Notes: a model not told the origin generated them from the sequence alone. Counted from the first letter of the stretch, positions 9,619-24,262 are shown. The stretch is DNA of 64,000 bases from SAR116 cluster bacterium AG-337-N21 (GCA_003282145.1 QBZZ01000002.1:1-64000); one strand, 5' to 3'. Program-made: numbers and translations.

Positions 9619-10695
9619 TTAAGTGACCTTTGACCATTTAATCTTATATTTTTGAAGTGTTTCTCCTGTTAATAAAAAAAACAATAGTATTCCTTCAAAT
9701 AAACCAGTAACTACTTTAGGTATACCCATAGACATTTGTGCGTTATCTGCCCCTAACTTAACGGTTGCTATAATAATACCTGCAAACAAAATTCCAATTG
9801 GATTTAATCGGCCAAGGAATGCTACTATAATTGCAGTAAACCCATATCCAAAAGAAACTTCAGGTTGCAATTGGCCAATGTTTGCAGAAACTTCAATTAC
9901 TCCTGCCACACCTGCTAAGCCACCAGATATTAACAAAACAGTAATTGTAATGGTATTTTGCTTGAAACCAGCAAATTTTGCTGCTTTAGGAGCAGCTCCT
10001 AACACATTTATTTTGAACCCACTCAACGTTTTATTTACAAAAAGCCATGAAATTGGAATTAATAATATTATAAATAAAATGCCATAGTGAAGTTGTCCCA
10101 AATAGCCTATAGCAGGAAATGGTATCTTATTGATTATAGCTCCTTCTGGGTACGGTTTAGATAATGGGAACCCAAAACTCATTGGATCTCTTAATGGACC
10201 CCTTACAATAAAATCTATAAACAACATTGCCACGTAAACAAGCATAAGACTAACTAATATTTCGTTTACGTTTAATTTCGTTTTTAGAATTGCAGGAATA
10301 AATGCCCACAAAGCACCACCTATAAAACCAATAACTATCATGATAAATATAAAGAATTTTGTTTCTACACTTGGGAATAATAATGCAAAAGAGCCAGCAA
10401 GTAGTGTTCCCATTATGAATTGACCTTCAGCACCAATATTCCATACATTAGCTCTGAAGCACAACATCAAACCAATTCCAACAATAATCAAGGGACATGC
10501 CTTAACAAGAATATCACTAATCCTGTCAATTCTTGAAAATGGGGATAGAAATATTTGATATAAAGTTTCTAAAGGATTATACCCAAGAAAAGTAAAAATT
10601 AATAAACCAAAAAAAATTGTTAAAAAAATTGATAAAATTGGACCGATGATTGTCCAGTTTTTGGAAACTTTATCCCTTGGTATAAAAGTGATCAT
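9619..10695 (-). CDS. ABC transporter permease, nucleoside/BMP type (NupP/YufP-like)
   Basis: 358 aa, about nine to ten transmembrane segments, first permease of a BMP-linked importer (YufP/NupP type). Diagnostic segments are LIIVGIGLMLCFRANVWNIGAEGQF at about residues 70-95 and LNVNEILVSLMLVYVA, then FKINVLGAAPKAAKFAGF in the coupling loop. Its ATG overlaps the stop of the ATPase gene by one base (TAATG), and the following permease starts immediately after its stop. It forms a heterodimeric channel with the next gene product. Confidence 0.9.
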   Translation of the reverse strand: MITFIPRDKVSKNWTIIGPILSIFLTIFFGLLIFTFLGYNPLETLYQIFLSPFSRIDRISDILVKACPLIIVGIGLMLCFRANVWNIGAEGQFIMGTLLAGSFALLFPSVETKFFIFIMIVIGFIGGALWAFIPAILKTKLNVNEILVSLMLVYVAMLFIDFIVRGPLRDPMSFGFPLSKPYPEGAIINKIPFPAIGYLGQLHYGILFIILLIPISWLFVNKTLSGFKINVLGAAPKAAKFAGFKQNTITITVLLISGGLAGVAGVIEVSANIGQLQPEVSFGYGFTAIIVAFLGRLNPIGILFAGIIIATVKLGADNAQMSMGIPKVVTGLFEGILLFFLLTGETLQKYKIKWSKVT

Positions 10696-12254
10696 TATGT
10701 TGATTCCATTTCATTAGAAGTTTCTAATTTACCACCCATCAACAATCCAACATCCTCAGCAGTGATTTGAGCTACTGGCAAAATTTTACTTAACGCTCCA
10801 TCATTTATTACACAAATTTTATCGGATAATTCAAAAATTTCTTCTAAATCTTGGCTTATAAGAATTACAGCTTTTCCACTATTGGATAAGTTCAATAATT
10901 TTTGTCTTATTGACGTCGCAGCACCTATGTCAACTCCCCAAGTAGGTTGTGAAAAGATCGCAACTTTAGGATCATTAGCTAATGATCTTCCTAAGATAAA
11001 TTTCTGTAAATTACCTCCCGACAATTGATTTGCTAAAGGATTTGCTTCAGGACATCGAACATCATTATCCTTTATTATATTCTCACTCTCAATCTTACTG
11101 TTTTGAGGATTATTTAATAAATTTGAAATTATATTGTTAGCTTTTGGGTATTTAAAAAAATATGTGAGAAAAGTATTTTCGGCAATTGTGAAATTTGGAA
11201 CAGTAGCGTGAAGTGTTCTTTCTTCAGGAATAGTTTCTATCCCTAATAGCCTTCTTTCTGCAATATTTTTAAACCCTATAGGTCGAGTTTCCAACAAAAT
11301 GTGATTTTCTTTTTCACATTGTGTTTCACCGCTTAATATTTCCATTAATTCTACTTGACCATTACCTGCAATACCTGCAACACCTAATATTTCACCATAG
11401 TTCACTTTTAGATTTATATTTTTTAGAGATATTCCAAAATCTGTTTCTTTAGCTTTGTTCAAATCTTTTAATTCCAAAGCAATGTCTTTAGTAACGTTCA
11501 TAGAATTTGTTTTTTTTAAATCAGTAATTTCTTTTCCAACCATGGTTTCAGCAAGAAATTTTGTATTTGTTTTTTTTGCATTAATTGTAGCTATTGACTC
11601 ACCAGATTTTAAGATAGTTACTTGATCTGCTAATTCTATAATTTCTTCTAATTTATGGCTTATATATAAAATAGAACAACCTGAAGAAGCTAAACGTTTT
11701 AAAATTTTAAATAGATTTGAAATTTCTTGAGGTGTTAGAACAGACGTTGGTTCATCCATAATCAACAATTTAGGGTTCTGCATTAAACATCGTATTATTT
11801 CAACTCTTTGTTGTTCTCCGACTGATAGTTCACTTACCCTTTTTAATGGATCAACAAAAAGCTCCCATTCTTTAGAAAGTTTAGAAATTTCTAAAATTAA
11901 ATCTTTGAATTTAATTTTTTTGTCTAGTGCTATCAAAATATTTTCAGCAACTGTAAGTGCTGGAAATAAGGAAAAATGTTGAAATACCATTCCAACACCA
12001 TTTTTCCTGGCAGAATTAGGTGAGGATATAGAAACTTCACTATTATTAATTTCTATGGTTCCTGTATCTGGTTTTAAAACACCGTAAAAAATTTTCACGA
12101 GTGTTGATTTACCAGCACCATTTTCACCTAAGAGAGCGTGAATTTCTCCCTTAGCTATAGATATGTCAATATCTTTATTTGCAATGAAGTTACCAAAAGA
12201 TTTATTTATTTTGGACGCTTTTAAAAGAATTTCTGGCTCTTTTTTTATTGCCAT
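10695..12254 (-). CDS. ABC transporter ATP-binding protein, double domain (NupO/YufO-like)
   Basis: 519 aa with two ABC domains. The first (about 10-245) has Walker A GENGAGKST, signature LSVGEQQRVEI and Walker B LLIMDEPTSVLTPQE. The second (about 265-500) has a degenerate Walker A (GIAGNGQVEL), signature LSGGNLQKFILGR and a Walker B in which the usual Glu is altered (VAIFSQPTWGVD). This asymmetry is normal for sugar/nucleoside importers with a fused ATPase. It energises the two permeases downstream. It starts 62 bases after the small membrane gene that ends the TAXI-TRAP operon, so read-through from there is possible. Confidence 0.92.
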   Translation of the reverse strand: MAIKKEPEILLKASKINKSFGNFIANKDIDISIAKGEIHALLGENGAGKSTLVKIFYGVLKPDTGTIEINNSEVSISSPNSARKNGVGMVFQHFSLFPALTVAENILIALDKKIKFKDLILEISKLSKEWELFVDPLKRVSELSVGEQQRVEIIRCLMQNPKLLIMDEPTSVLTPQEISNLFKILKRLASSGCSILYISHKLEEIIELADQVTILKSGESIATINAKKTNTKFLAETMVGKEITDLKKTNSMNVTKDIALELKDLNKAKETDFGISLKNINLKVNYGEILGVAGIAGNGQVELMEILSGETQCEKENHILLETRPIGFKNIAERRLLGIETIPEERTLHATVPNFTIAENTFLTYFFKYPKANNIISNLLNNPQNSKIESENIIKDNDVRCPEANPLANQLSGGNLQKFILGRSLANDPKVAIFSQPTWGVDIGAATSIRQKLLNLSNSGKAVILISQDLEEIFELSDKICVINDGALSKILPVAQITAEDVGLLMGGKLETSNEMEST

Positions 12255-12316: not shown

Positions 12317-12502
12317 TCAATTTTTTTGTTTAGAAGTCTTTAATATTAAAAATATCAGTATTGCGATTGATACAAAAATTATAGAGATGAATAAATTGAA
12401 ATTGCTAACATGCATTTTATTGAAACCACAAGAAAATATAATTATAGTGGTCACAACAATCATTATCCAATGAATTGGTTTACCTAAAAATATCTTATTC
12501 AC
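12317..12502 (-). CDS. Small two-helix membrane protein linked to TRAP transporter
   Basis: 61 aa, two predicted transmembrane helices (about residues 12-27 and 35-54) joined by FNKMHVSNFN, and a short Lys-rich tail. The GTG start at 12502 overlaps the TAG stop of the TRAP permease by one base (TAGTG on the minus strand), strong evidence for a translated, coupled gene. Function unknown. Its placement suggests an accessory or stabilising subunit of the TAXI-TRAP permease. Confidence 0.65.
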   Translation of the reverse strand: MNKIFLGKPIHWIMIVVTTIIIFSCGFNKMHVSNFNLFISIIFVSIAILIFLILKTSKQKN

Positions 12503-14514
12503 TATGTTTCCTTTAAACTAAAATTTAGTTTATCTTGTAAAAAGTATATAATTAATAAAATTAAAATCCCAAAAAAATTATAATAAAAACCTTCTAAACC
12601 ATAAATAGTCATTAATGGTGGGATTAGTAAAGTTACCGAACCAACTAACACTAAAGTTCTTTTGTACAAGTTTAATTTACCATTAAACCATCCTTCGAGA
12701 CCAAGTGTCATTAACCAATAAGCCAGCAAAACAGCAACAAGACTATATAAACTCCAAATAATGGGACCTTCCATCAAAAGAGACGGATTATAAACAAAGG
12801 CAAAAGGTACAATATATTTTGCAATACCTACTTTGCTGGATTCAACAGCTGTAGACATTGGTGGAGACTTTGCAATAGCTGCACCTGCAAATGAGGCCAA
12901 AGCCACTGGAGGAGTTATCGTCGAGACAACTCCAAAATAAAATGCAAACATATGAGCGGCTATTGGTAAAATACCAGATTCAATTAATGAGGGAACAATT
13001 AATGCAGCCACAGTAATATAAACAGCAGTAGTCGTCATTCCCATTCCTAAAATAATTGCTGAAATGGCGGTAAGACAGAGCAAAATAAATAGTACACCAC
13101 CGGATAAATCTATAACGGATTGTGTGAATTTTAGTCCTAGGCCAGAAACAAATACGGAACCAATAATTATTCCAGCACATGCACAGGCAATAGTAACAGG
13201 GACTGTAGATTTTATACCACTTTCAAACGCGCCAAGTATATCAACTACAGACATTCTAGTATTTTTTTTCAAAAAACTTAAGGCAATGACAGACACTATA
13301 CTCCAAAAGCCAGCAGTCATAGCTGTTTTTCCATAAATCAAAAGACCCACTAGCACAGCCAGTGAAAGCAACATATGACCGCCACCTTTCAATACTTCAA
13401 TAACGTTAGGTAGCATAGACTTATCAATTTTTTCTATTCCATGTTTTTCAGCTTCGATGTGAACCATAAAATAAATTGTAGTAAAGTATAAAAATGCAGG
13501 AATAATAGCTGCAAGTATCACATATGAATATGGTGCTTCTAAAAATTCAGCCATTATAAATGCAGCAGCACCCATTATCGGAGGTGTTATCTGCCCTCCA
13601 GAAGATGCACATGCCTCAACCGCAGCAGCAAATTTTGCTCTATAACCGTAATTTTTCATGAGGGGTATAGTAAAAGATCCTGTTGTTACAACATTTGCAA
13701 CAGCTGAACCATATACAGTTCCAGTCATTCCAGATGCCACAACTGCTGCTTTTGCAGGACCTCCTGTTCTATGTCCTGTTAAAGCAACAGCCAAATCAAC
13801 AAAAAATCTTCCAACCCCAGACCTAATCAAAATACCTCCAAATATTATAAATAGAACAATATAAGTGGATGCAACATAAAGAGGTATTCCATAAATTCCA
13901 TCTGAGGTCATAAATAAGGTGTCTATATATTTAGCAAGTCTTGTAGGTGGTCCATAAAAAAAACCAAAAAACTTGTGAGCGTATAATGCGTGTAGCATAA
14001 AAAAACCAGCAACAAAAACCATTGCCCAACCTACTGCACGTCTTGTGGCGTCTAAAACAATAAAAATAAGAATTGATCCGACTATAATGTCGCCAATATA
14101 CTTGTCACCATATCGCATCATAAAATTTTCGACATCCCATGTTGTCCATAATTGAATAAATATTATTGAAAGTATTATTATTAAATCATATGCAAAACCA
14201 AAGACTCTGAAATAATTACCTTGTTTGTCATTTTTAATCAGCAGAGGATCTTTTATGTTTTGTCTAAATAAGGGATATATAAAAACTGCTAAAACCATCA
14301 TCGCGGAAAGATGTATAGATCTAAATGAACGTCCCTCTGGTGTTCCATAGACTGCAACAAATAGATGGTAGAAGGCTAAACCAACAGAAAGCCAGGAACA
14401 AACTACAATAATCCAATAATAAATTGATTTATCTTTGTTCCACTCGAGCAGCTCATCAAAGAAACTAATTTCTTTGACTTCGTTATATTCTAATTTTTTG
14501 GTATTTTCTGACAT
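12502..14514 (-). CDS. TRAP transporter fused 4TM/12TM permease (TAXI type)
   Basis: About 670 aa from the ATG at 14514 (MSENTKKLEYN); a GTG 27 bases upstream (14541) would overlap the hairpin at 14531-14558 and is less likely. The N-terminal part is DctQ-like (four helices, to about residue 200), the rest DctM-like, with GVGRFFVDLAVALTGHRTGGPAKAAVVASGMTGTVYGSA and GGQITPPIMGAAAFIM, the conserved substrate-channel motifs. Fused permeases of this kind work with TAXI-family binding proteins and are driven by an ion gradient. The TAXI binding protein is encoded just upstream. Substrate likely a dicarboxylate or related organic acid, not resolvable from sequence. Confidence 0.92.
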   Translation of the reverse strand: MSENTKKLEYNEVKEISFFDELLEWNKDKSIYYWIIVVCSWLSVGLAFYHLFVAVYGTPEGRSFRSIHLSAMMVLAVFIYPLFRQNIKDPLLIKNDKQGNYFRVFGFAYDLIIILSIIFIQLWTTWDVENFMMRYGDKYIGDIIVGSILIFIVLDATRRAVGWAMVFVAGFFMLHALYAHKFFGFFYGPPTRLAKYIDTLFMTSDGIYGIPLYVASTYIVLFIIFGGILIRSGVGRFFVDLAVALTGHRTGGPAKAAVVASGMTGTVYGSAVANVVTTGSFTIPLMKNYGYRAKFAAAVEACASSGGQITPPIMGAAAFIMAEFLEAPYSYVILAAIIPAFLYFTTIYFMVHIEAEKHGIEKIDKSMLPNVIEVLKGGGHMLLSLAVLVGLLIYGKTAMTAGFWSIVSVIALSFLKKNTRMSVVDILGAFESGIKSTVPVTIACACAGIIIGSVFVSGLGLKFTQSVIDLSGGVLFILLCLTAISAIILGMGMTTTAVYITVAALIVPSLIESGILPIAAHMFAFYFGVVSTITPPVALASFAGAAIAKSPPMSTAVESSKVGIAKYIVPFAFVYNPSLLMEGPIIWSLYSLVAVLLAYWLMTLGLEGWFNGKLNLYKRTLVLVGSVTLLIPPLMTIYGLEGFYYNFFGILILLIIYFLQDKLNFSLKET

Positions 14515-14530
14515 TTGTATTTGAAAAATT

Positions 14531-14558
14531 AAGAAAGGCACATATTTGCGCCTTTCTT
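14531..14558 (-). terminator. Intercistronic hairpin after the TAXI binding-protein gene
   Basis: AAGAAAGGC (14531-14539) and GCCTTTCTT (14550-14558) pair perfectly over nine bases around a 10-base loop, eight bases after the binding-protein stop. On the minus strand the stem is followed by AATTTTTC, a short U run. It probably acts as a leaky terminator or RNA stabiliser, giving more binding protein than permease. Confidence 0.6.
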
Positions 14559-14566
14559 ATTTAGAT

Positions 14567-15523
14567 TTACATTACGCCTTGTTCTTTGTAATATTTTGCA
14601 GCTCCAGGATGAATAGGAACCGCTGCACCATTAACAGCGTCTTTAAGTATAACTTTCTTCCAAACACCTTTAACTTTTACAAATTCTGCGTGATTATCCC
14701 AAAAAGCCTTAGTCATTTTGTAAACGAGGTCATCTGATAAATCCTTGTGTACAATCATGGAAGTAACAATTCCTAGAGTTGGAATGTCTTTATCTAGAGA
14801 TTTATATGCACTTGCAGGAATTTTACCATAGATATATCCAGGATTATTTTTTACAATTCTGTCAATTCTTTCTTTAGGTAAGCCAATAAATCTTATGCCT
14901 GGGCTATTTTCTAATTCAATGAAACTAGCCTGAGGTACTGAAGTAGCAGCCATAAAAACATCAGCTTGTCCATCTTTCATTAAAGCAACTGATTCTTTAT
15001 AACTTACCATATGGACTACACCACCATTTTTTTTGATAGTACTAAAATCATAACCATAATCTTTTATAATTGACTCACAAAAAGCTGTACCGGTCCATTT
15101 TGGTTTACCAGGACTGATATTTGCTGATTTCATATCTTCAAAACCTTTAATTTTTGAATCAGCTCTAACCGCAACTTGAAATGCAGCAGGATAGAGTGTA
15201 GCAAAATATCTCACGTTTTTATGTGCTTTTTTGAATTTACCTTTTCCTGAGTATCCATTGGCCACAGTATGGGCATAGGTCCATCCAATTTCAGCATCAC
15301 CACCATCAACTGACATAACATTGGAAATACCACCACCAGAAGTATTAGAAGTTGATACACCTTTAATGCTAGTTTCCATTACTTGCATTACTTTAGCACC
15401 AAGTGGATACCAAGATCCTCCAGATGGTCCTGATACCATCCTAAGAAATTGATCTGCATTAGCTATTGATGATGTAACAAAAAGTGATGCAGCAATTAAA
15501 ATTGCTCCTGAAATACGTTTCAT
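14567..15523 (-). CDS. TAXI family TRAP transporter solute-binding protein
   Basis: About 318 aa from the ATG at 15523, preceded by a perfect GGAGG five bases upstream; the longer reading from 15535 would include that site. Signal peptide to about residue 23 (TSSIANA/D). The mature part opens with FLRMVSGPSGGSWYPLGAKVMQ, the TAXI (TRAP-associated extracytoplasmic immunogenic) signature, followed by NTSGGGISNVMSVDGGDAEIGW. It captures the solute in the periplasm and delivers it to the fused permease encoded next. Divergent from the HMG-CoA-lyase operon across a 130-base gap, so both may be co-regulated. Confidence 0.93.
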   Translation of the reverse strand: MKRISGAILIAASLFVTSSIANADQFLRMVSGPSGGSWYPLGAKVMQVMETSIKGVSTSNTSGGGISNVMSVDGGDAEIGWTYAHTVANGYSGKGKFKKAHKNVRYFATLYPAAFQVAVRADSKIKGFEDMKSANISPGKPKWTGTAFCESIIKDYGYDFSTIKKNGGVVHMVSYKESVALMKDGQADVFMAATSVPQASFIELENSPGIRFIGLPKERIDRIVKNNPGYIYGKIPASAYKSLDKDIPTLGIVTSMIVHKDLSDDLVYKMTKAFWDNHAEFVKVKGVWKKVILKDAVNGAAVPIHPGAAKYYKEQGVM

Positions 15524-15653
15524 ATAATCCTCCAAATTTAAGTATTAACTCTAAATATCATTACGAATTATAAAAAAGGTCAAGTGAATGTTGTATTTTT
15601 TTTAATAAATCCTATTCTCTATAAATTAAAACATAATCAAATGGGGTTTTTAT

Positions 15654-16592
15654 ATGAAAGTTGAAAAAGTTAAAATTACTGAGGTTGGACCTAGAGACGG
15701 CTTTCAATCTGAAAGGACTATATTAAAAACTGAAGATAAAATTGATGTAATAAACAATCTAATAGATGCAGGTCTTCAAAGAATAGAAGTTTCATCTTTT
15801 GTCTCCCCAAAAGCAATTCCACAATTGGCTGATGCAGCAACAATTCTAGAAAATGTAAAAAGAAATCCCAAATTTACTTTAGCAGCACTAGTGCCTAATG
15901 CAAAAGGAGCATTAAGGGCTGTTGAGGCAAAACTTGACGAAATTGTTGTTTTTCTTTCCGCTTCAGAAAGCCATAATAAGAAGAATGTAAATAGAAGTGT
16001 AGAAGACTCTCTAATTGGATTTAGAGAAATTGCAGACATTGCTGGAAAAAATAATATACCAGTTCAAGGTGATATAGCAACAGCTTTTGGCTGTCCATTT
16101 GAAGGTAACGTTTCAGCAAAAAAACTAGCTGAAATTTCTAATGAATATAAATTAATGGGTTTTAAAGGTGTTACTTTAGGTGATACCACCGGGATGGCAA
16201 CACCACCTGTAGTAATTGATGCTATTCACGCGATAAGGGATAAAGTCCCAGATTTAGAAATTACCCTTCATTTTCATAACACTCGAGGTGTTGGACTTGC
16301 TAACGTGATGACAGGATTGAATGAGGGAATAACTGATTACGAAAGTTGCTTTGGTGGGATGGGTGGATGTCCTTTTGCACCAAATGCAACGGGTAACATT
16401 TGCTCTGAAGATCTTATTTATTTACTTCATGAAATGGGAATAGAAACTGGGATTGATTTAGATCAGATAATTTCAATTGCTAAAAAAGTAGAAAAATTGG
16501 TTGGTCATAAATTACCTGGTCAGGTTATGAGAGCAGGCCACAGATTATTGTCTTACTCTATGGACGAAGTACCTACTGCTGTTGGAGCATAA
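15654..16592 (+). CDS. Hydroxymethylglutaryl-CoA lyase family protein
   Basis: 312 aa, TIM-barrel of the HMGL-like family. It begins KITEVGPRDGFQSE (metal/substrate Arg-Asp), has ETSF-like VSSFVSPKAIPQLAD, the metal-binding HFHNTRG, and GGCPFAPNATGNICSEDL at about residue 237 carrying the catalytic Cys. Family reaction: retro-aldol cleavage of 3-hydroxy-3-methylglutaryl-CoA to acetyl-CoA and acetoacetate; close relatives cleave citramalyl-CoA-type esters. It is first of six same-strand genes (CoA-transferase, hydratase, dehydrogenase, PrpF-type isomerase, AbrB). Given that company a substrate other than HMG-CoA is plausible. Confidence 0.87.
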   Translation: MKVEKVKITEVGPRDGFQSERTILKTEDKIDVINNLIDAGLQRIEVSSFVSPKAIPQLADAATILENVKRNPKFTLAALVPNAKGALRAVEAKLDEIVVFLSASESHNKKNVNRSVEDSLIGFREIADIAGKNNIPVQGDIATAFGCPFEGNVSAKKLAEISNEYKLMGFKGVTLGDTTGMATPPVVIDAIHAIRDKVPDLEITLHFHNTRGVGLANVMTGLNEGITDYESCFGGMGGCPFAPNATGNICSEDLIYLLHEMGIETGIDLDQIISIAKKVEKLVGHKLPGQVMRAGHRLLSYSMDEVPTAVGA

Positions 16593-17747
16593 ATGACTTC
16601 TGAAAATAATAATGGTGCACTTTCTGGTGTAAAAGTTATTGATCTGACAAGAGTGCTGTCCGGTCCTTTTTGCACGATGCTTTTAGCTGATATGGGAGCT
16701 GAAGTAATTAAGATAGAACCACCTAAAGGTGACAATGTAAGGAATCAGGGTGATATGGTTGATGGCTATAGCTCTTACTTTGCACAGTTCAATAGAAATA
16801 AAAAATCTGTAATTTTAGATTTATATAAAGAAACCGATAAAGAGTTATTAAAATCTTTGCTTAGTGATGCAGATGTTGTTGTAGAAAATTTTAAGGCAGG
16901 AGTTTTTAATAAAATGGGTTTTGATTATGAAACCTTGAAATCGATCAATCCGAAACTGATTAGTGCATCTGTCAATGGTTTTGGAAGTAAAGGAGAAATG
17001 AGTGACAGACCAGCTTTTGACTTCATAGCTCAGGCATTAAGTGGATTTATGTCATTAAATGGTACTGATGAAAGTGGCCCAATGAGAGCAGCTATGCCCA
17101 TATCAGATTTAGTAGCTGGTCTATATTGTTCTTTCGGAATCGTGAGCGCTTTATATTCAAGAGTTCAAACAGGAAAAGGGCAACAAGTTGAGTCATGTCT
17201 TACATCAGGTCTAATATCAATGATGGCATATTTATCATCTGAGAGTTTTGTTACCGGTAAAGCCCCAAAAAAATCTGGTAATAATCATCCAATTTTAGCA
17301 CCTTATGGGATTTTTCAAACATCTGATGGTGAGGTAGCTGTAGCCCCAGCAAGTGACAAGTTTTGTAATATATTCCTTGAAAGTACTGGTTTAACAAATT
17401 TGTTAAAAGATGAACTATATAAAAATAATACAAATAGAATGAAAAATAGAGACAGTCTAAATAAAATTGTTAATGAAAAAATGGCCTTGAAATCGTCAGA
17501 TTACTGGATAAAAAAACTAAATGATGCAGGTTGTCCTGCAGCTAAAATTGTATCACTACCAGAAGCTCTTGATAGTCAATTAGTAAAAGATACTGAGATG
17601 GTTATAAACTCAAACGGCCCAGAGGGTAGAAAAATAAAAATGACAGGTTTCCCAGTCAAATTATCTGAAACACCTTCCCAACTCTATAGATCCCCGCCCT
17701 TACTAGGTGAACATACAGAAGAAGTTCTAAAAACAATAAAAAATTAA
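16593..17747 (+). CDS. CaiB/BaiF family (class III) CoA-transferase
   Basis: 384 aa, usual length. It opens LSGVKVIDLTRVLSGPFCTMLLADMGAEVIKIEPP, the family hallmark, and has the active-site Asp at about residue 172 in AMPISDLVAGLYCSFG. Class III CoA-transferases move CoA between carboxylic acids (for example succinyl-CoA to a dicarboxylate). Its ATG follows the lyase stop with no gap, so the two are coupled. It most likely activates the acid that the following hydratase and the preceding lyase act on, as in itaconate- or methylglutaconate-type degradation; the identity of the acid is inference. Confidence 0.9.
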   Translation: MTSENNNGALSGVKVIDLTRVLSGPFCTMLLADMGAEVIKIEPPKGDNVRNQGDMVDGYSSYFAQFNRNKKSVILDLYKETDKELLKSLLSDADVVVENFKAGVFNKMGFDYETLKSINPKLISASVNGFGSKGEMSDRPAFDFIAQALSGFMSLNGTDESGPMRAAMPISDLVAGLYCSFGIVSALYSRVQTGKGQQVESCLTSGLISMMAYLSSESFVTGKAPKKSGNNHPILAPYGIFQTSDGEVAVAPASDKFCNIFLESTGLTNLLKDELYKNNTNRMKNRDSLNKIVNEKMALKSSDYWIKKLNDAGCPAAKIVSLPEALDSQLVKDTEMVINSNGPEGRKIKMTGFPVKLSETPSQLYRSPPLLGEHTEEVLKTIKN

Positions 17748-17763
17748 TTGGAGAGAAATTATA

Positions 17764-18555
17764 ATGGATTTAAAGACAATAAATTTTAAAATCGAAAATG
17801 AAATTGCATTGATTGAATTGAATAGACCAAAACAATATAATTCTCTAAATCAAGCTATGGCAGAGGATTTATTTCAAGTCTCATTGGAATGCGACGATAA
17901 TCCAAATATTAGATCTGTTTTGATGAGTGGAGCTGGGGAAGATGCCTTTTGTGCAGGTGGTGACGTAAATTCTTTTCATAAATATGGCCATAAGACAGCT
18001 AGTCATCTAAAGGAAGTTACAACAATCCTTCATGGAGCTATTTCAAGACTCTCAAGAATGAATGCTCCTCTTGTTGTCGCGGTAAATGGCGTGGCTGCTG
18101 GCGCGGGCTTTTCTTTTGTTGGATTTGCAGATATTGCAATTGCATCAACAAACGCAACATTTGTTTCAGCTTATTCAAAAATAGGATTAACACCAGACGG
18201 ATCCTCAACATACTTTTTGCCAAGAATTATTGGTACAAGAAGATATACGGAGCTTGTATTAACTAATAGAGTTTTAAGTGCAAAAGAAGCACTTGATTGG
18301 GGGCTGATAAATAAAGTTGTTGATTTCAAAGATCTAAAAGATGAGGCACATAATCTAGCAAAAAAATTAGCTGTGGGCCCATCTCTGGCATTTGGTAAAT
18401 TAAAAAATTTAGTCCACAACAGTTTTTTAGATTCTCTTGAAGGACAAATGGAGTATGAGTCAAGAATGATTGCTGAATCTGCAAAAACAAAAGATGGCAT
18501 CAATGGGGTTGATGCGTTCGTAAATAAAAAAACAGTTACATTCAAAGGTGAGTAA
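17764..18555 (+). CDS. Enoyl-CoA hydratase/isomerase family protein
   Basis: 263 aa crotonase-fold enzyme. It shows NRPKQYNSLNQAM near the N-terminus, the first oxyanion-hole loop GEDAFCAGGDVNSF at about 60-73, and the second at VNGVAAGAGFSFV (about 106-118). The Glu pair of classical hydratase is not both obvious: the segment after the second loop reads SKIGLTPDGSSTYFLPRIIG, as in many isomerase-like or 2-(1,2-epoxyphenylacetyl)-type members, so hydratase versus isomerase is open. It has an AGAGAAA-type ribosome binding site. It sits between the CoA-transferase and the dehydrogenase in one operon. Confidence 0.87.
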   Translation: MDLKTINFKIENEIALIELNRPKQYNSLNQAMAEDLFQVSLECDDNPNIRSVLMSGAGEDAFCAGGDVNSFHKYGHKTASHLKEVTTILHGAISRLSRMNAPLVVAVNGVAAGAGFSFVGFADIAIASTNATFVSAYSKIGLTPDGSSTYFLPRIIGTRRYTELVLTNRVLSAKEALDWGLINKVVDFKDLKDEAHNLAKKLAVGPSLAFGKLKNLVHNSFLDSLEGQMEYESRMIAESAKTKDGINGVDAFVNKKTVTFKGE

Positions 18556-18567
18556 GAGTGTTATTTT

Positions 18568-19656
18568 ATGTCGATTAATATTTTAGCTTTTGACGGCGAT
18601 GGTATTGGCCCTGAGATAATGAAATCAACACTGGATATCGTTGAGCTTTTGAATAAGAAATTAAAATTAAAAATAGATATATCTAAAGAGCCTATAGGTT
18701 TTGAATCACTAGAACAAAAAGGAACAACTTTTACAGACGACGCACTAACAAAAGCAAAAAAAGCAGATGGAATTATTTTGGGACCTGTTGGCCACAATGC
18801 TTATCCGTCCAAGAAGCAGGGTGGTATTAACCCATCTGGAACACTTCGAATAGAATTAGATTTATATGCAAATATAAGACCTGCGAAAAATTATAAAAAT
18901 GTTAAGTCTCTTTCTAAAGATATGGATTTAATTATTTTAAGAGAAAACACTGAAGGTTTTTATGCTGATCGAAATATGTTTGAAGGGAGTGGTGAATTTA
19001 GCCCGTCTCCTGGAATAGGATTAGCTATTAGGAAAATAACTAAAGCTGCGTCGCTTAGAATAGCAGAAACCGCTTTTGAAATAGCTAGATTAAAGAATAA
19101 TCAAATTAAAAAACCAGTTGTTCACGCAATTCATAAAGCAAATGTAATGAAATTAACGGATGGTATCTTTCTAGATGCTTGCAGGCAAGTGTCTAAAAAA
19201 CACAAAGATATTATTTATAAAGAAATGCTTGTAGATGCCTGTGCTGCTCACATTATAAGAGATCCAAGTCAATTTGATATTATTGTAACTACCAATATGT
19301 TTGGAGATATTTTATCTGATTTAGCAACTGAATTTTCAGGTTCCTTAGGTTTGGCAGGATCGCTAAATGCCGGTGAAGATTATGCAATGGCTCAAGCTCA
19401 ACATGGCTCTGCTCCAGATATTGCAGGTCAAAATACGGCAAACCCAATTTCTCTAATTTTGTCCACAAGTATGTTACTCAATTGGCTTGGAGAAAGAAGA
19501 AAGATAAAGGACCTGATTTTAGCATCGAGTTTAATTGATAAATCTGTTACAAACCTATTCGAAAACAAAAATAATTTAACTAAAGATCTTGGTGGAACGG
19601 CTTCAACAGAAAAAACAACCGAAAATCTAATTAACATCTTAAATCATTTAATTTAA
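18568..19656 (+). CDS. Isocitrate/isopropylmalate dehydrogenase family protein
   Basis: 362 aa beta-decarboxylating dehydrogenase. It has GDGIGPEIM at the N-terminus, the specificity helix TLRIELDLYANIRPAK at about 90-105, RENTEGFYADRN (isocitrate/homoisocitrate/tartrate-type ENTEG rather than the ELTGG of LeuB), HKANVMKLTDGIF with the catalytic Lys, the metal-binding Asp segment NMFGDILSDL, and HGSAPDIAGQNTANPI. It oxidatively decarboxylates a malate-type acid with NAD(P). The absence of leuACD neighbours and the presence of PrpF, CaiB and lyase genes argue against leucine synthesis and for catabolism of a branched or tricarboxylic acid. Confidence 0.88.
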   Translation: MSINILAFDGDGIGPEIMKSTLDIVELLNKKLKLKIDISKEPIGFESLEQKGTTFTDDALTKAKKADGIILGPVGHNAYPSKKQGGINPSGTLRIELDLYANIRPAKNYKNVKSLSKDMDLIILRENTEGFYADRNMFEGSGEFSPSPGIGLAIRKITKAASLRIAETAFEIARLKNNQIKKPVVHAIHKANVMKLTDGIFLDACRQVSKKHKDIIYKEMLVDACAAHIIRDPSQFDIIVTTNMFGDILSDLATEFSGSLGLAGSLNAGEDYAMAQAQHGSAPDIAGQNTANPISLILSTSMLLNWLGERRKIKDLILASSLIDKSVTNLFENKNNLTKDLGGTASTEKTTENLINILNHLI

Positions 19657-19662
19657 TAAGTC

Positions 19663-20763
19663 ATGACTGATCAAATATCTATACCTACAGTTTTTATGCG
19701 AGGGGGAACATCCAAAGGATTACTTTTCGATAAAAGAGATTTGCCTTCTGAAGAAAAAAAAATAAGTAAATATTTACTAGCTGCAATGGGTTCACCTGAT
19801 TTGCGTCAGATAGATGGGATGGGCGGAGCTACTTCAGTAACTAGTAAAGTTTGTATAATTTCAAAAAGTGAGCTTAAAAATATTGATATAGATTATTTTT
19901 TTGCTCAAGTTTTAGTTGATGAGGCTAGAGTAGATTATGGCCCAACTTGTGGTAATATGCTCTCGGCCGTTGGCCCATTTGCTATTGAAAAGGGTATGAT
20001 AGATGCAAAAGAGATTAAAACTAATATAGTTATTAGATCAGTCAATACTGGTTCAATTGTAGAAGCAACTATCCAAACTCCCAATAAGAAGGTTAAATAT
20101 TCTGGTGACTATAAAATTGCAGGAGTTCCTGGTGAAGGATCACCAATATTATTAAAGTTCAAAAACTTAGTTGGGGGTATTACTGGTAAACTTTTACCAA
20201 CTGATCATCCAACCACAATTATAAATGGTATTGAGGTCACATGTTTAGATGTTTCAATGCCAATAGTTATGGCAAATGCAAAAGATTTTGGCATTGTTGG
20301 AAATGAAACTAGTAATGATTTAAATGAAAACAAAACTTTATTAAAAAAAATAGAAGAAATTCGACTTAGAGCTGCTTTAAAAATGGGTATGGGAGACGTA
20401 AGTGGGATAGTTATTCCTAAGTTTGCTCTTTTATCAAAACCACTAAATGGTGGAACTATTACTTCAAGGTATTTTACTCCAAAAACTTGCCATGAGACTC
20501 ACGCTGCAACTGGTTCTAATTGTATTGCTTCAGCATGTTTAATTTCCAACACAGTTGCATCTAAAATTACAAATATTGAAGCAACTGGTAACGATAAAAT
20601 AACAATAGAACACCCATTAGGTCTGATAGATTGTTTAGTTGAAACCTCAACTACAGTAAATAGTTTTGATAAAGATTTTATCAAATCCTGTGGTGTGTAT
20701 CGTACTTCAAGAAAAATAATGGATGGTAATGTCTATATTCCAGAAAATATAGATGATGATTAA
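19663..20763 (+). CDS. PrpF-type isomerase (aconitate / methylitaconate / oxalomesaconate isomerase family)
   Basis: 366 aa, PrpF protein family (diaminopimelate-epimerase fold, duplicated). Diagnostic segments are PTVFMRGGTSKGLLF at residues 5-20, DGMGGATSVTSKVCII near 50-65, YGPTCGNMLSAVGPFA near 90-105, and HETHAATGSNCIASA near 280. Members shift double bonds in aconitate-like acids: 2-methyl-cis-aconitate isomerase, aconitate isomerase, 3-methylitaconate isomerase, 4-oxalomesaconate tautomerase. No prpBCD genes are present here, so the methylcitrate cycle is not the context. It overlaps the AbrB gene by 11 bases. Confidence 0.9.
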   Translation: MTDQISIPTVFMRGGTSKGLLFDKRDLPSEEKKISKYLLAAMGSPDLRQIDGMGGATSVTSKVCIISKSELKNIDIDYFFAQVLVDEARVDYGPTCGNMLSAVGPFAIEKGMIDAKEIKTNIVIRSVNTGSIVEATIQTPNKKVKYSGDYKIAGVPGEGSPILLKFKNLVGGITGKLLPTDHPTTIINGIEVTCLDVSMPIVMANAKDFGIVGNETSNDLNENKTLLKKIEEIRLRAALKMGMGDVSGIVIPKFALLSKPLNGGTITSRYFTPKTCHETHAATGSNCIASACLISNTVASKITNIEATGNDKITIEHPLGLIDCLVETSTTVNSFDKDFIKSCGVYRTSRKIMDGNVYIPENIDDD

Positions 20764-21826
20764 ATCTACTAACTTATACTTTAAAAACTTTTTTGACTGG
20801 TGGCCTCAAAAGTGGGGGTATATTTTCAGTTTATTGTTAGCTGTAATTAGTAGTTTGATTGCCTATTATTTAGGGTTGCCTCTACCTTGGATGTTAGGAC
20901 CATTGATGGGCTGTGGCTTTTTTGCAGCAATAGGTAAACCGGTCATAATTGGTAAAAAGCCTAGACCAATTTGTAGGGCACTTTTAGGCTGTACTATTGG
21001 GGCTAATTTTGGGCCAGAGATTTTAAATAGATTTAGTGAAATCGGAGTGTCTTTATTATTTATACCTGGTTTTGTTTTAATTATGGGAATCACAACTTTT
21101 TTATATTTATCAAAAATTATGAAAATGGATCGATCAACATCAATTTATGGTTCAATTCCAGGTGGTTTAAATGAAATGGTTATTTTGGGTCAAGAAATTG
21201 GAGCCGATCCAAGGACGCTTGTTTTAATTCACGCAACAAGAATAGTAGTCGTAGTATTTTTAGCCTCTTTGGTAATATTATTTGTTCCGAATTTAGGTGT
21301 TGAAGATTTACCTGAACCAGATTTATTTTATAATTGGAAACAAACCCCAACTGTTATTCTAGTTTCGCTAATCGGATGGTTTTTAGCAGTCAAACTAAAA
21401 ATACCTGGACCCACAATTATAGGCCCAATGATTTTATCAGCGGCTGCCCATATTTTTCAGATTATAGATGCAATGCCAATGTATATAATAGTAATTTCCA
21501 TTCAAATTTTACTTGGTTCTGCACTTGGATGTTTATTTAAAAACATTACTTTCAAAGAAATGTCTGGTCCAATATTAGCTGGATTAATAACAACTTTAAT
21601 TGCAGTAATACCTCTAATTATAATTTTTTATTTTTTAAGTAATATTGGTTATGATCCTTTATCAATTTTGTTAGCTTTTTCTCCAGGTGGTCAGTCTGAG
21701 ATGAATATTTTAGCATTATCTGTTGGTGCGGATATGTCTTTCATAAGCCCCCACCATATGTTCAGAGTGTTTCTTGTGATTATATTTGCAGGAATTTTAC
21801 ATAAAATCATAAAAAGATTTATTTAA
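20753..21826 (+). CDS. AbrB family membrane protein (probable transporter)
   Basis: 357 aa polytopic membrane protein of the membrane AbrB family (AbrB duplication type, often mis-named ammonia monooxygenase). The duplicated motifs are GLPLPWMLGPLMGCGFFAAIGKP and LKIPGPTIIGPMILSAAAH, with SIPGGLNEMVILGQEIGAD and AFSPGGQSEMNILALSVGAD halfway through each repeat. Function in bacteria is unproven; genetic context commonly suggests organic-acid transport. It overlaps the PrpF gene by 11 bases, ending the 15.6-21.8 kb operon. A second member lies at 23.2 kb on the other strand. Confidence 0.85.
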   Translation: MMIKSTNLYFKNFFDWWPQKWGYIFSLLLAVISSLIAYYLGLPLPWMLGPLMGCGFFAAIGKPVIIGKKPRPICRALLGCTIGANFGPEILNRFSEIGVSLLFIPGFVLIMGITTFLYLSKIMKMDRSTSIYGSIPGGLNEMVILGQEIGADPRTLVLIHATRIVVVVFLASLVILFVPNLGVEDLPEPDLFYNWKQTPTVILVSLIGWFLAVKLKIPGPTIIGPMILSAAAHIFQIIDAMPMYIIVISIQILLGSALGCLFKNITFKEMSGPILAGLITTLIAVIPLIIIFYFLSNIGYDPLSILLAFSPGGQSEMNILALSVGADMSFISPHHMFRVFLVIIFAGILHKIIKRFI

Positions 21827-23206: not shown

Positions 23207-24262
23207 TCAATTTGAATTCTGTATTAATAATTTCAGTTTAGGATAAATATATTTTTCGGCTATAGCTAAGATTATGAGCACAATTAACAATCTAAAAAAA
23301 TGATGAGTGACAACAAATGCTGGTTTAATATCTAGTGATGAAGCTACTAAACCCATTTCTTGAATTCCACCAGGAGCAAATGCTAATATTATTGCTTCTG
23401 CTTTAGCACCTGTAAAAGAAGATATAATCACTATAAACGGTATCATACAAACTGTAAGAGACATGACTATCCCAATTGCACAACCAATGTATTCTCTTGC
23501 GATTTTCCAATTTAGTCCATGCATGTTACTTCCAAAAAAGCTGCCAACTATGAGTTGTGCTAAAATGAAAATTATAATAGGAGCATCTAAGGCAATAATT
23601 TCAGTCATATGAAGAACCGCACTTAGGATTAATGGTCCAAAAAGTTTTTTACCCGGAAGTTTTATAATTGTTCCAAAGAATATACCACTAGGGATTAATA
23701 TGAGAATTATAAAACAATCAACTATACTTCCATAAAAATTAGGCCACATTGGTTGTCTTTCAAATGATCCTGGAAATACGAATAATATAAGAGTGGGGAT
23801 GGTAAATACAGTTATAAAAATTCGTATAATATGTATTAGTCCTACCTTCTTTGAGTTTGCTCCACATTCTTCTGCTCCTAATGCCATTTCTAACAAACCA
23901 CCTGGAGAAGAAATAAAAAAAGCTTCTACTTTTGGTACCTTTAAAATTTTGTAAAGGAAAACATAAGTAATAAAAAACGCAATTGGTACATACAGAAATA
24001 AGAACATGATAGAAATTATCCAATCATTCAATTCATGAAAAATTGAAGATGAAAATGACTGACCTAACCAAACACCTATAATGCCTACAAAAGGATCTCT
24101 CAGTTTTTGTGGAACATGTACTTCGTTTCCAAAAAGTGTAAAAATAGCTATTGAAAAGGCAGGTCCCAAAACCCACGGCAAAGGAAAAAGTAAAAAATTG
24201 AAAGTAATACCTCCTAAAATACCAATAAAAATTGTTATTAAAATAATTTGAATTTTACCCAT
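23207..24262 (-). CDS. AbrB family membrane protein, second copy
   Basis: 351 aa, about ten transmembrane segments. The same duplicated architecture as the protein at 20.8 kb: FPLPWVLGPAFSIAIFTLFG and KLPGKKLFGPLILSAVLHMTE, with SSPGGLLEMALGAEECGA and AFAPGGIQEMGLVASSLDIK. Identity between the two is modest by eye, so they are diverged paralogues rather than a recent duplication. It is first gene of a minus-strand operon with the DapA-like and GFA genes and divergent from the Ldh-family dehydrogenase, suggesting uptake of a hydroxy- or keto-acid. Confidence 0.83.
   Translation of the reverse strand: MGKIQIILITIFIGILGGITFNFLLFPLPWVLGPAFSIAIFTLFGNEVHVPQKLRDPFVGIIGVWLGQSFSSSIFHELNDWIISIMFLFLYVPIAFFITYVFLYKILKVPKVEAFFISSPGGLLEMALGAEECGANSKKVGLIHIIRIFITVFTIPTLILFVFPGSFERQPMWPNFYGSIVDCFIILILIPSGIFFGTIIKLPGKKLFGPLILSAVLHMTEIIALDAPIIIFILAQLIVGSFFGSNMHGLNWKIAREYIGCAIGIVMSLTVCMIPFIVIISSFTGAKAEAIILAFAPGGIQEMGLVASSLDIKPAFVVTHHFFRLLIVLIILAIAEKYIYPKLKLLIQNSN

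Follow-up and report, generated by a model that had tools for sequence, protein, structure and literature searches.

Gene content and organization of the operon

The window analyzed here, a stretch of 64,000 nucleotides from SAR116 cluster bacterium AG-337-N21, contains six adjacent ORFs on one strand and a TRAP transporter encoded divergently from them:

15654-16592, plus strand: HMGL-like CoA-ester lyase (PF00682; NF004283, 351 versus a cut-off of 246)
16593-17747, plus strand: class III (CaiB) CoA-transferase (PF02515, 404 bits)
17764-18555, plus strand: probable crotonase-fold enoyl-CoA isomerase, PaaG-like (ECH_1; nearest structures include PaaG)
18568-19656, plus strand: beta-decarboxylating hydroxyacid dehydrogenase of the IDH/IPMDH superfamily, in a clade of its own (PF00180)
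19663-20763, plus strand: PrpF/LigU/YbhH-family double-bond isomerase (NF033377, 449 versus a cut-off of 440)
20753-21826, plus strand: AbrB-duplication membrane protein, predicted carboxylate carrier (TIGR03082 and PF05145)
14567-15535, minus strand: TAXI-family TRAP solute-binding protein, divergent (TIGR02122, 226 versus a cut-off of 84)
12502-14541, minus strand: fused TRAP permease, syntenic (TIGR02123, 621 versus a cut-off of 321)

The six ORFs were assigned by Pfam and NCBIfam to HMGL-like, CoA_transf_3, ECH_1, Iso_dh, PrpF, and AbrB, and are separated, in order, by 0, 16, 12, 6, and -11 bases. An earlier note on this DNA had described gaps of 0-12 bases or overlaps; the tight same-strand spacing holds, but the largest gap measured is 16 bases. 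Its family calls agreed with the Pfam and NCBIfam models and need three corrections: the ECH protein is probably an isomerase, the lyase is probably not a true HMG-CoA lyase, and the AbrB protein is predicted to adopt an AspT/CitS fold. The divergent TAXI-TRAP system that it named was confirmed by the NCBIfam models for both the binding protein and the fused permease. Among the five operon enzymes, the PrpF protein was the only one to pass an NCBIfam equivalog cut-off, supporting the view of an acid-catabolic operon without an assignment. A sigma-70 promoter scan performed at chance level (48 found, 45 expected).

Conservation and distribution of the six-gene unit

The host genome measures 2.04 Mb and is 82% complete. 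Its family, here called f1, comprises 58 genomes in four genera of an order that is apparently Puniceispirillales (SAR116). The order HMGL-CaiB-ECH-IDH-PrpF-AbrB was identical in loci from all four f1 genera, and the TAXI-TRAP genes were divergent from HMGL in every f1 locus whose contig extended that far, indicating that the operon is not a chance arrangement. The co-occurrence of the six families, which the earlier note had suggested looking for, thus extends across the four genera together with the transporter, and the relatives within f1 conserve the operon. In searches across the order, 49 of the 58 f1 genomes had a match to the IDH gene and 47 to the HMGL gene. Both were present in all f1 genomes at least 85% complete, and the genomes without a match were all below that value. 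The HMGL gene had no match in the order outside f1 at the threshold used. Pairwise divergences of the six operon proteins, compared over 15-16 loci, correlated with one another at r = 0.90-0.98, whereas their correlation with the TAXI-TRAP proteins was merely 0.44-0.72, suggesting that the six proteins evolve as a unit.

The search outside f1 covered PrpF in 190 genomes of the class, HMGL and IDH in 349 genomes of the phylum, CaiB in 80 loci from genome contigs, and plasmids by tblastn. The full six-gene combination was not found there; two parts of it, HMGL with CaiB and IDH with PrpF, occurred separately only, and the two were never seen together in the 80 CaiB contig loci, in the sampled phylum genomes, or around the plasmid matches. 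In Nitratireductor, Skermanella, Paracoccus seriniphilus, Alloyangia, and Ponticoccus, HMGL and CaiB stood as a pair, encoded divergently from TctABC and usually accompanied by a GntR gene; in Cupriavidus necator N-1 and Roseomonas, the pair lay next to LeuCD-like genes. In Thalassospira, Pacificitalea, and a Puniceispirillales family other than f1, IDH and PrpF were located in TcuA/TcuB loci that also encode a fused transporter of the tricarboxylate type. In the Puniceispirillum-type locus, both TcuA (655 versus a cut-off of 369) and TcuB (550 versus a cut-off of 247) passed their equivalog models. These tricarballylate-type loci of Puniceispirillales, Thalassospira, and Rhodobacterales share with the operon a same-clade IDH, a PrpF-family isomerase and, in several cases, an AbrB gene, but contain TcuA, TcuB, and the tricarboxylate transporter where the operon contains HMGL, CaiB, ECH, and TAXI-TRAP. 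TcuA and TcuB are missing from the operon, and the best TcuA match in its own genome was 35% identical and lay on another contig. Because HMGL with CaiB and IDH with PrpF were each found separately elsewhere, the operon looks like a fusion of two otherwise separate branched-acid modules.

The lyase and the CoA-transferase

The alignment of the lyase with human HMG-CoA lyase needed no gaps, and the catalytic and metal residues are kept: R14, D15, E45, H206, H208, C239, and N248 correspond to human R41, D42, E72, H233, H235, C266, and N275. In the pocket, human R165 is replaced by Q138 and Y167 by D140, so the residue pair of HMG-CoA lyases is absent. Both equivalents are retained in PA2011 of P. 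aeruginosa, a characterized HMG-CoA lyase, and the pair was missing from all HMGL+CaiB-type homologues aligned. Position 138 is Q in the window and H in some relatives. D140 was specific to f1 among the aligned lyases, and proteins from HMGL+CaiB-only loci carried A, G, or C there. No paper joining R165Q with HMG-CoA lyase was found in a literature search. These features suggest that the operon protein is probably not a true HMG-CoA lyase.

An HMGL homologue adjoining CaiB and GntR genes lies at about 3.083 Mb in a genome that, judging partly from its gene order, is probably that of Chloroflexus aurantiacus. This site presumably holds the genes for (R)-citramalyl-CoA lyase and succinyl-CoA:D-citramalate CoA-transferase, and the Chloroflexus lyase was reportedly placed in the HMG-CoA lyase family in a 2007 J. 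Bacteriol. paper. Both (R)-citramalyl-CoA lyase (EC 4.1.3.46) and succinyl-CoA:(R)-citramalate CoA-transferase (EC 2.8.3.20) are recognized activities (PMC8307300). The Chloroflexus HMGL/CaiB pair is most likely this lyase and its CoA-transferase. Like that pair, the operon places an HMGL-family lyase next to a class III CoA-transferase, and the two lyases share the H-x-H-N-T-R motif and the loss of human R165 and Y167. Identity is about 39% for the lyases and about 31% for the transferases. The Chloroflexus lyase has G at 138 and A at 140 and is accompanied by a GntR gene, whereas the f1 operon has Q or H at 138, D at 140, and no GntR gene, and adds ECH, IDH, PrpF, AbrB, and TAXI-TRAP. The best NCBIfam model for the CaiB protein was succinyl-CoA:mesaconate CoA-transferase, at 308 bits and below the cut-off of 700. 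CaiB adjoined HMGL in other Proteobacteria as well as in the Chloroflexus genome. On these comparisons, we propose the operon lyase as a candidate (R)-citramalyl-CoA-type lyase. Because D140 and Q/H138 differ from the A, G, or C at 140 of the HMGL+CaiB-only proteins and from the A and G of Chloroflexus, its substrate may differ from theirs.

The crotonase-fold protein

Enoyl-CoA hydratases have two catalytic glutamates, one in each of two motifs. In the ECH protein, these motifs read AGAGFSF and YSKIGLTPDGSS and do not provide the two glutamates, a reading based on the sequence itself and on its alignment with PaaG rather than on a residue-by-residue alignment with a canonical hydratase. PaaG of T. 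thermophilus and of E. coli were among the nearest solved structures, and D145, invariant in seven f1 sequences, aligned with Asp136 of T. thermophilus PaaG, a catalytic, proton-shuttling residue (PMC7497051). The retained PaaG-type Asp and the two motif sequences suggest that the protein is probably an isomerase rather than a hydratase. No hydratase for an unsaturated CoA ester is encoded in the operon, and the hydration step that the earlier note had included therefore has no evident enzyme. The itaconyl-CoA hydratase of pseudomonads also shows itaconyl-CoA isomerase activity (PMC12290011).

The dehydrogenase and the PrpF-family isomerase

The IDH-like protein missed all NCBIfam equivalogs (leuB, 213 versus 353; AksF2, 302 versus 540; IDH PRK08997, 268 versus 510; TTC, 187 versus 470), and LeuB is encoded separately in its genome, as are two tartrate-dehydrogenase paralogues. 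N88, S90, R94, R104, R125, Y132, K190, D223, and D247 were invariant in 19 sequences of its clade. We take the N88 and S90 sites to be those of S113 and N115 in isocitrate dehydrogenase, which bind the gamma-carboxylate, and of L90 in isopropylmalate dehydrogenase, which contacts a hydrophobic side chain. From the alignment, the polar N88 and S90 would favor a substrate with a third carboxylate or a hydroxyl group. A fold search with the AF2 model (pLDDT 89) did not indicate a substrate, since isopropylmalate, tartrate, isocitrate, and homoisocitrate dehydrogenases were all matched at Z 41-45 and were not separated.

The PrpF protein narrowly passed the 4-oxalomesaconate tautomerase cut-off given above and fell below that of NCBIfam prpF (2-methylcitrate; 184 versus 441). 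Its nearest solved structures were YbhH (6otv) and LigU (6p3j). K62 and C96 were invariant in 14 sequences and are presumably the counterparts of the Lys and Cys that LigU uses in catalysis. The tautomerase label is broad, since it is also given to PrpF proteins of TcuA/TcuB loci (L065:4175-5272 and L066:10871-12001), where it is probably over-broad. A literature search found no paper linking oxalomesaconate with tricarballylate. Aconitate isomerases are known within the PrpF superfamily (PMC11495376). One of them, TarA, resembles the operon protein in being encoded with a carrier, but the tar operon consists of the isomerase and an MFS importer only, without the IDH or the CoA module of f1 (PMC11495376).

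The AbrB protein, the transporter and neighboring genes

No sequence relative of the AbrB protein was found in the PDB. Along almost the whole protein, its AF2 model (pLDDT 86) matched AspT (Z 24.4, rmsd 3.5 over 326 residues) and the citrate symporter CitS (Z 21.2, rmsd 4.3 over 329 residues), both at the level of fold only, and scored well below these values against Na/H exchangers (Z about 10-13). The predicted fold makes a carrier far likelier than a regulator and supports the suggestion of the earlier note that AbrB could act as an importer.

Several further features were observed around the operon and elsewhere in these genomes. A strong 13-pair hairpin followed by a T-rich tail (14530-14559, minus strand) lies between the TAXI and TRAP permease genes and may set unequal expression of the two. 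An internal ATG (MSENTKK...; 14514-14541, minus strand), and not the listed GTG, is probably the start of the permease. Genes for a sugar/B6-type ABC permease and ATPase (9619-12254, minus strand) adjoin the TRAP genes, and in two other f1 genera this site is occupied by an ORF of 358 aa together with an ABC ATPase. A second AbrB-type carrier (23207-24262, minus strand) adjoins DapA-family and malate/LDH2-type genes; some members of the genus and one sister genus have it, but it is missing from the loci of the other two genera. An aconitase of 909-946 aa with a weak PF00330 score, probably AcnB-type, was seen in the host's genus and one sister genus (G000:C22:10835-12289 in the host genome), and one with a strong PF00330 score, probably AcnA-type, in another sister genus and in Puniceispirillum.

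Proposed function and alternatives

Beyond the gene content, conservation, active-site residues, and modularity observed above, we infer the substrates and the direction of every reaction as follows. The operon would be an f1-specific catabolic unit made up of two branched-acid modules and their carriers, a reading to which we give about an even chance. In the first module, the CaiB CoA-transferase would activate a branched hydroxy-dicarboxylate of the citramalate type, and the HMGL-like lyase would cleave the CoA ester, most likely (R)-citramalyl-CoA to pyruvate and acetyl-CoA; the PaaG-like isomerase could act on a related unsaturated acid, moving the double bond of its CoA ester. The second module would process an acid of the aconitate/isocitrate type or a C5 analogue: the PrpF-family isomerase would move or flip the double bond of an acid resembling aconitate or itaconate, and the IDH-like enzyme would convert the corresponding 2-hydroxy-3-carboxy acid to a 2-oxo acid by oxidative decarboxylation. 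The acids would be imported through TAXI-TRAP and the AbrB carrier. Branched di- or tricarboxylic acids would thus yield pyruvate and acetyl-CoA, and probably a 2-oxo acid as well. The two modules may lack a common substrate, because N88 and S90 of the IDH-like protein suggest a tricarboxylate, and the lyase/CoA-transferase pair a C5 diacid.

The earlier note had instead arranged the genes in a single chain of isomerization, decarboxylation, activation, hydration, and cleavage. This chain was not supported, since HMGL with CaiB and IDH with PrpF form separate modules elsewhere; a linear pathway for one acid is possible, yet it is not the simplest reading. In such a route, a single acid, either unsaturated and tricarboxylic or branched and dicarboxylic, would undergo isomerization by PrpF and oxidative decarboxylation by IDH, after which CaiB would activate it, the ECH protein would convert it, and HMGL would cleave it. 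The tight operon, its strict conservation, and the co-divergence of the six genes within f1 are consistent with it, and D140, peculiar to f1 among the aligned lyases, hints at a substrate of its own. However, either module is found without the other elsewhere, the 2-oxo acid produced by IDH is no obvious substrate for CaiB and HMGL, and hydration is missing, with an ECH protein that is isomerase-like. We regard this route as unlikely. Its more specific form, a single unreported pathway shared throughout the marine, SAR116-like f1, seems likewise unlikely; there, a tricarboxylic acid that is both branched and unsaturated would be isomerized, oxidatively decarboxylated, CoA-activated, and cleaved by a lyase of the HMGL family with a new specificity, marked by Q/H138 and D140.

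Degradation of 3-methylglutaconate or 3-hydroxy-3-methylglutarate, as in leucine or isoprenoid breakdown, would have CaiB activate the acid, ECH hydrate it, and HMGL release acetoacetate and acetyl-CoA. The lyase does reach the HMG-CoA lyase subfamily model (351 versus 246), and CaiB is close to the glutarate/HMG CoA-transferase families; but Q and D at the positions of human R165 and Y167, the PaaG isomerase Asp in the ECH protein, and a PrpF and an IDH left unexplained make this quite improbable. Finally, an acid of the 4-oxalomesaconate type from aromatic ring cleavage, with PrpF as the tautomerase, would agree with the NCBIfam score of PrpF and with LigU among its nearest solved structures. 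We consider it very improbable, as the tautomerase label also covers the TcuA/TcuB-locus proteins and no ring-cleavage gene, including a dioxygenase, was found among the scanned operon genes and neighbors.

The reading as two modules and carriers can also be compared with itaconate degradation in pseudomonads, where the citramalyl-CoA lyase is CitE-like. The Ict-Ich-Ccl cluster resembles the operon in combining a CoA-transferase, an enzyme acting on the double bond of a CoA ester, and a lyase yielding pyruvate and acetyl-CoA (PMC12290011). Its lyase is (S)-specific, whereas that of the operon is HMGL-like (PF00682) and not CitE-like, and the double-bond enzyme of the operon is, unlike that of the cluster, a PaaG-like isomerase. 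The parts of the operon are each of a known kind, and their combination, found only in f1, is unusual; to our knowledge it fits no known pathway, in agreement with the earlier note, which had found no full match.

If the proposed function is true, a route for the degradation of C5/C6 branched acids would be added to a marine lineage that is represented here largely by incomplete genomes. Some current labels may also be wrong: an 'HMG-CoA lyase' encoded beside CaiB is likelier to be a citramalyl-CoA-type lyase, a '4-oxalomesaconate tautomerase' in a TcuA/TcuB locus is likelier to be an aconitate-type isomerase, and 'AbrB' regulators are likelier to be carboxylate carriers.
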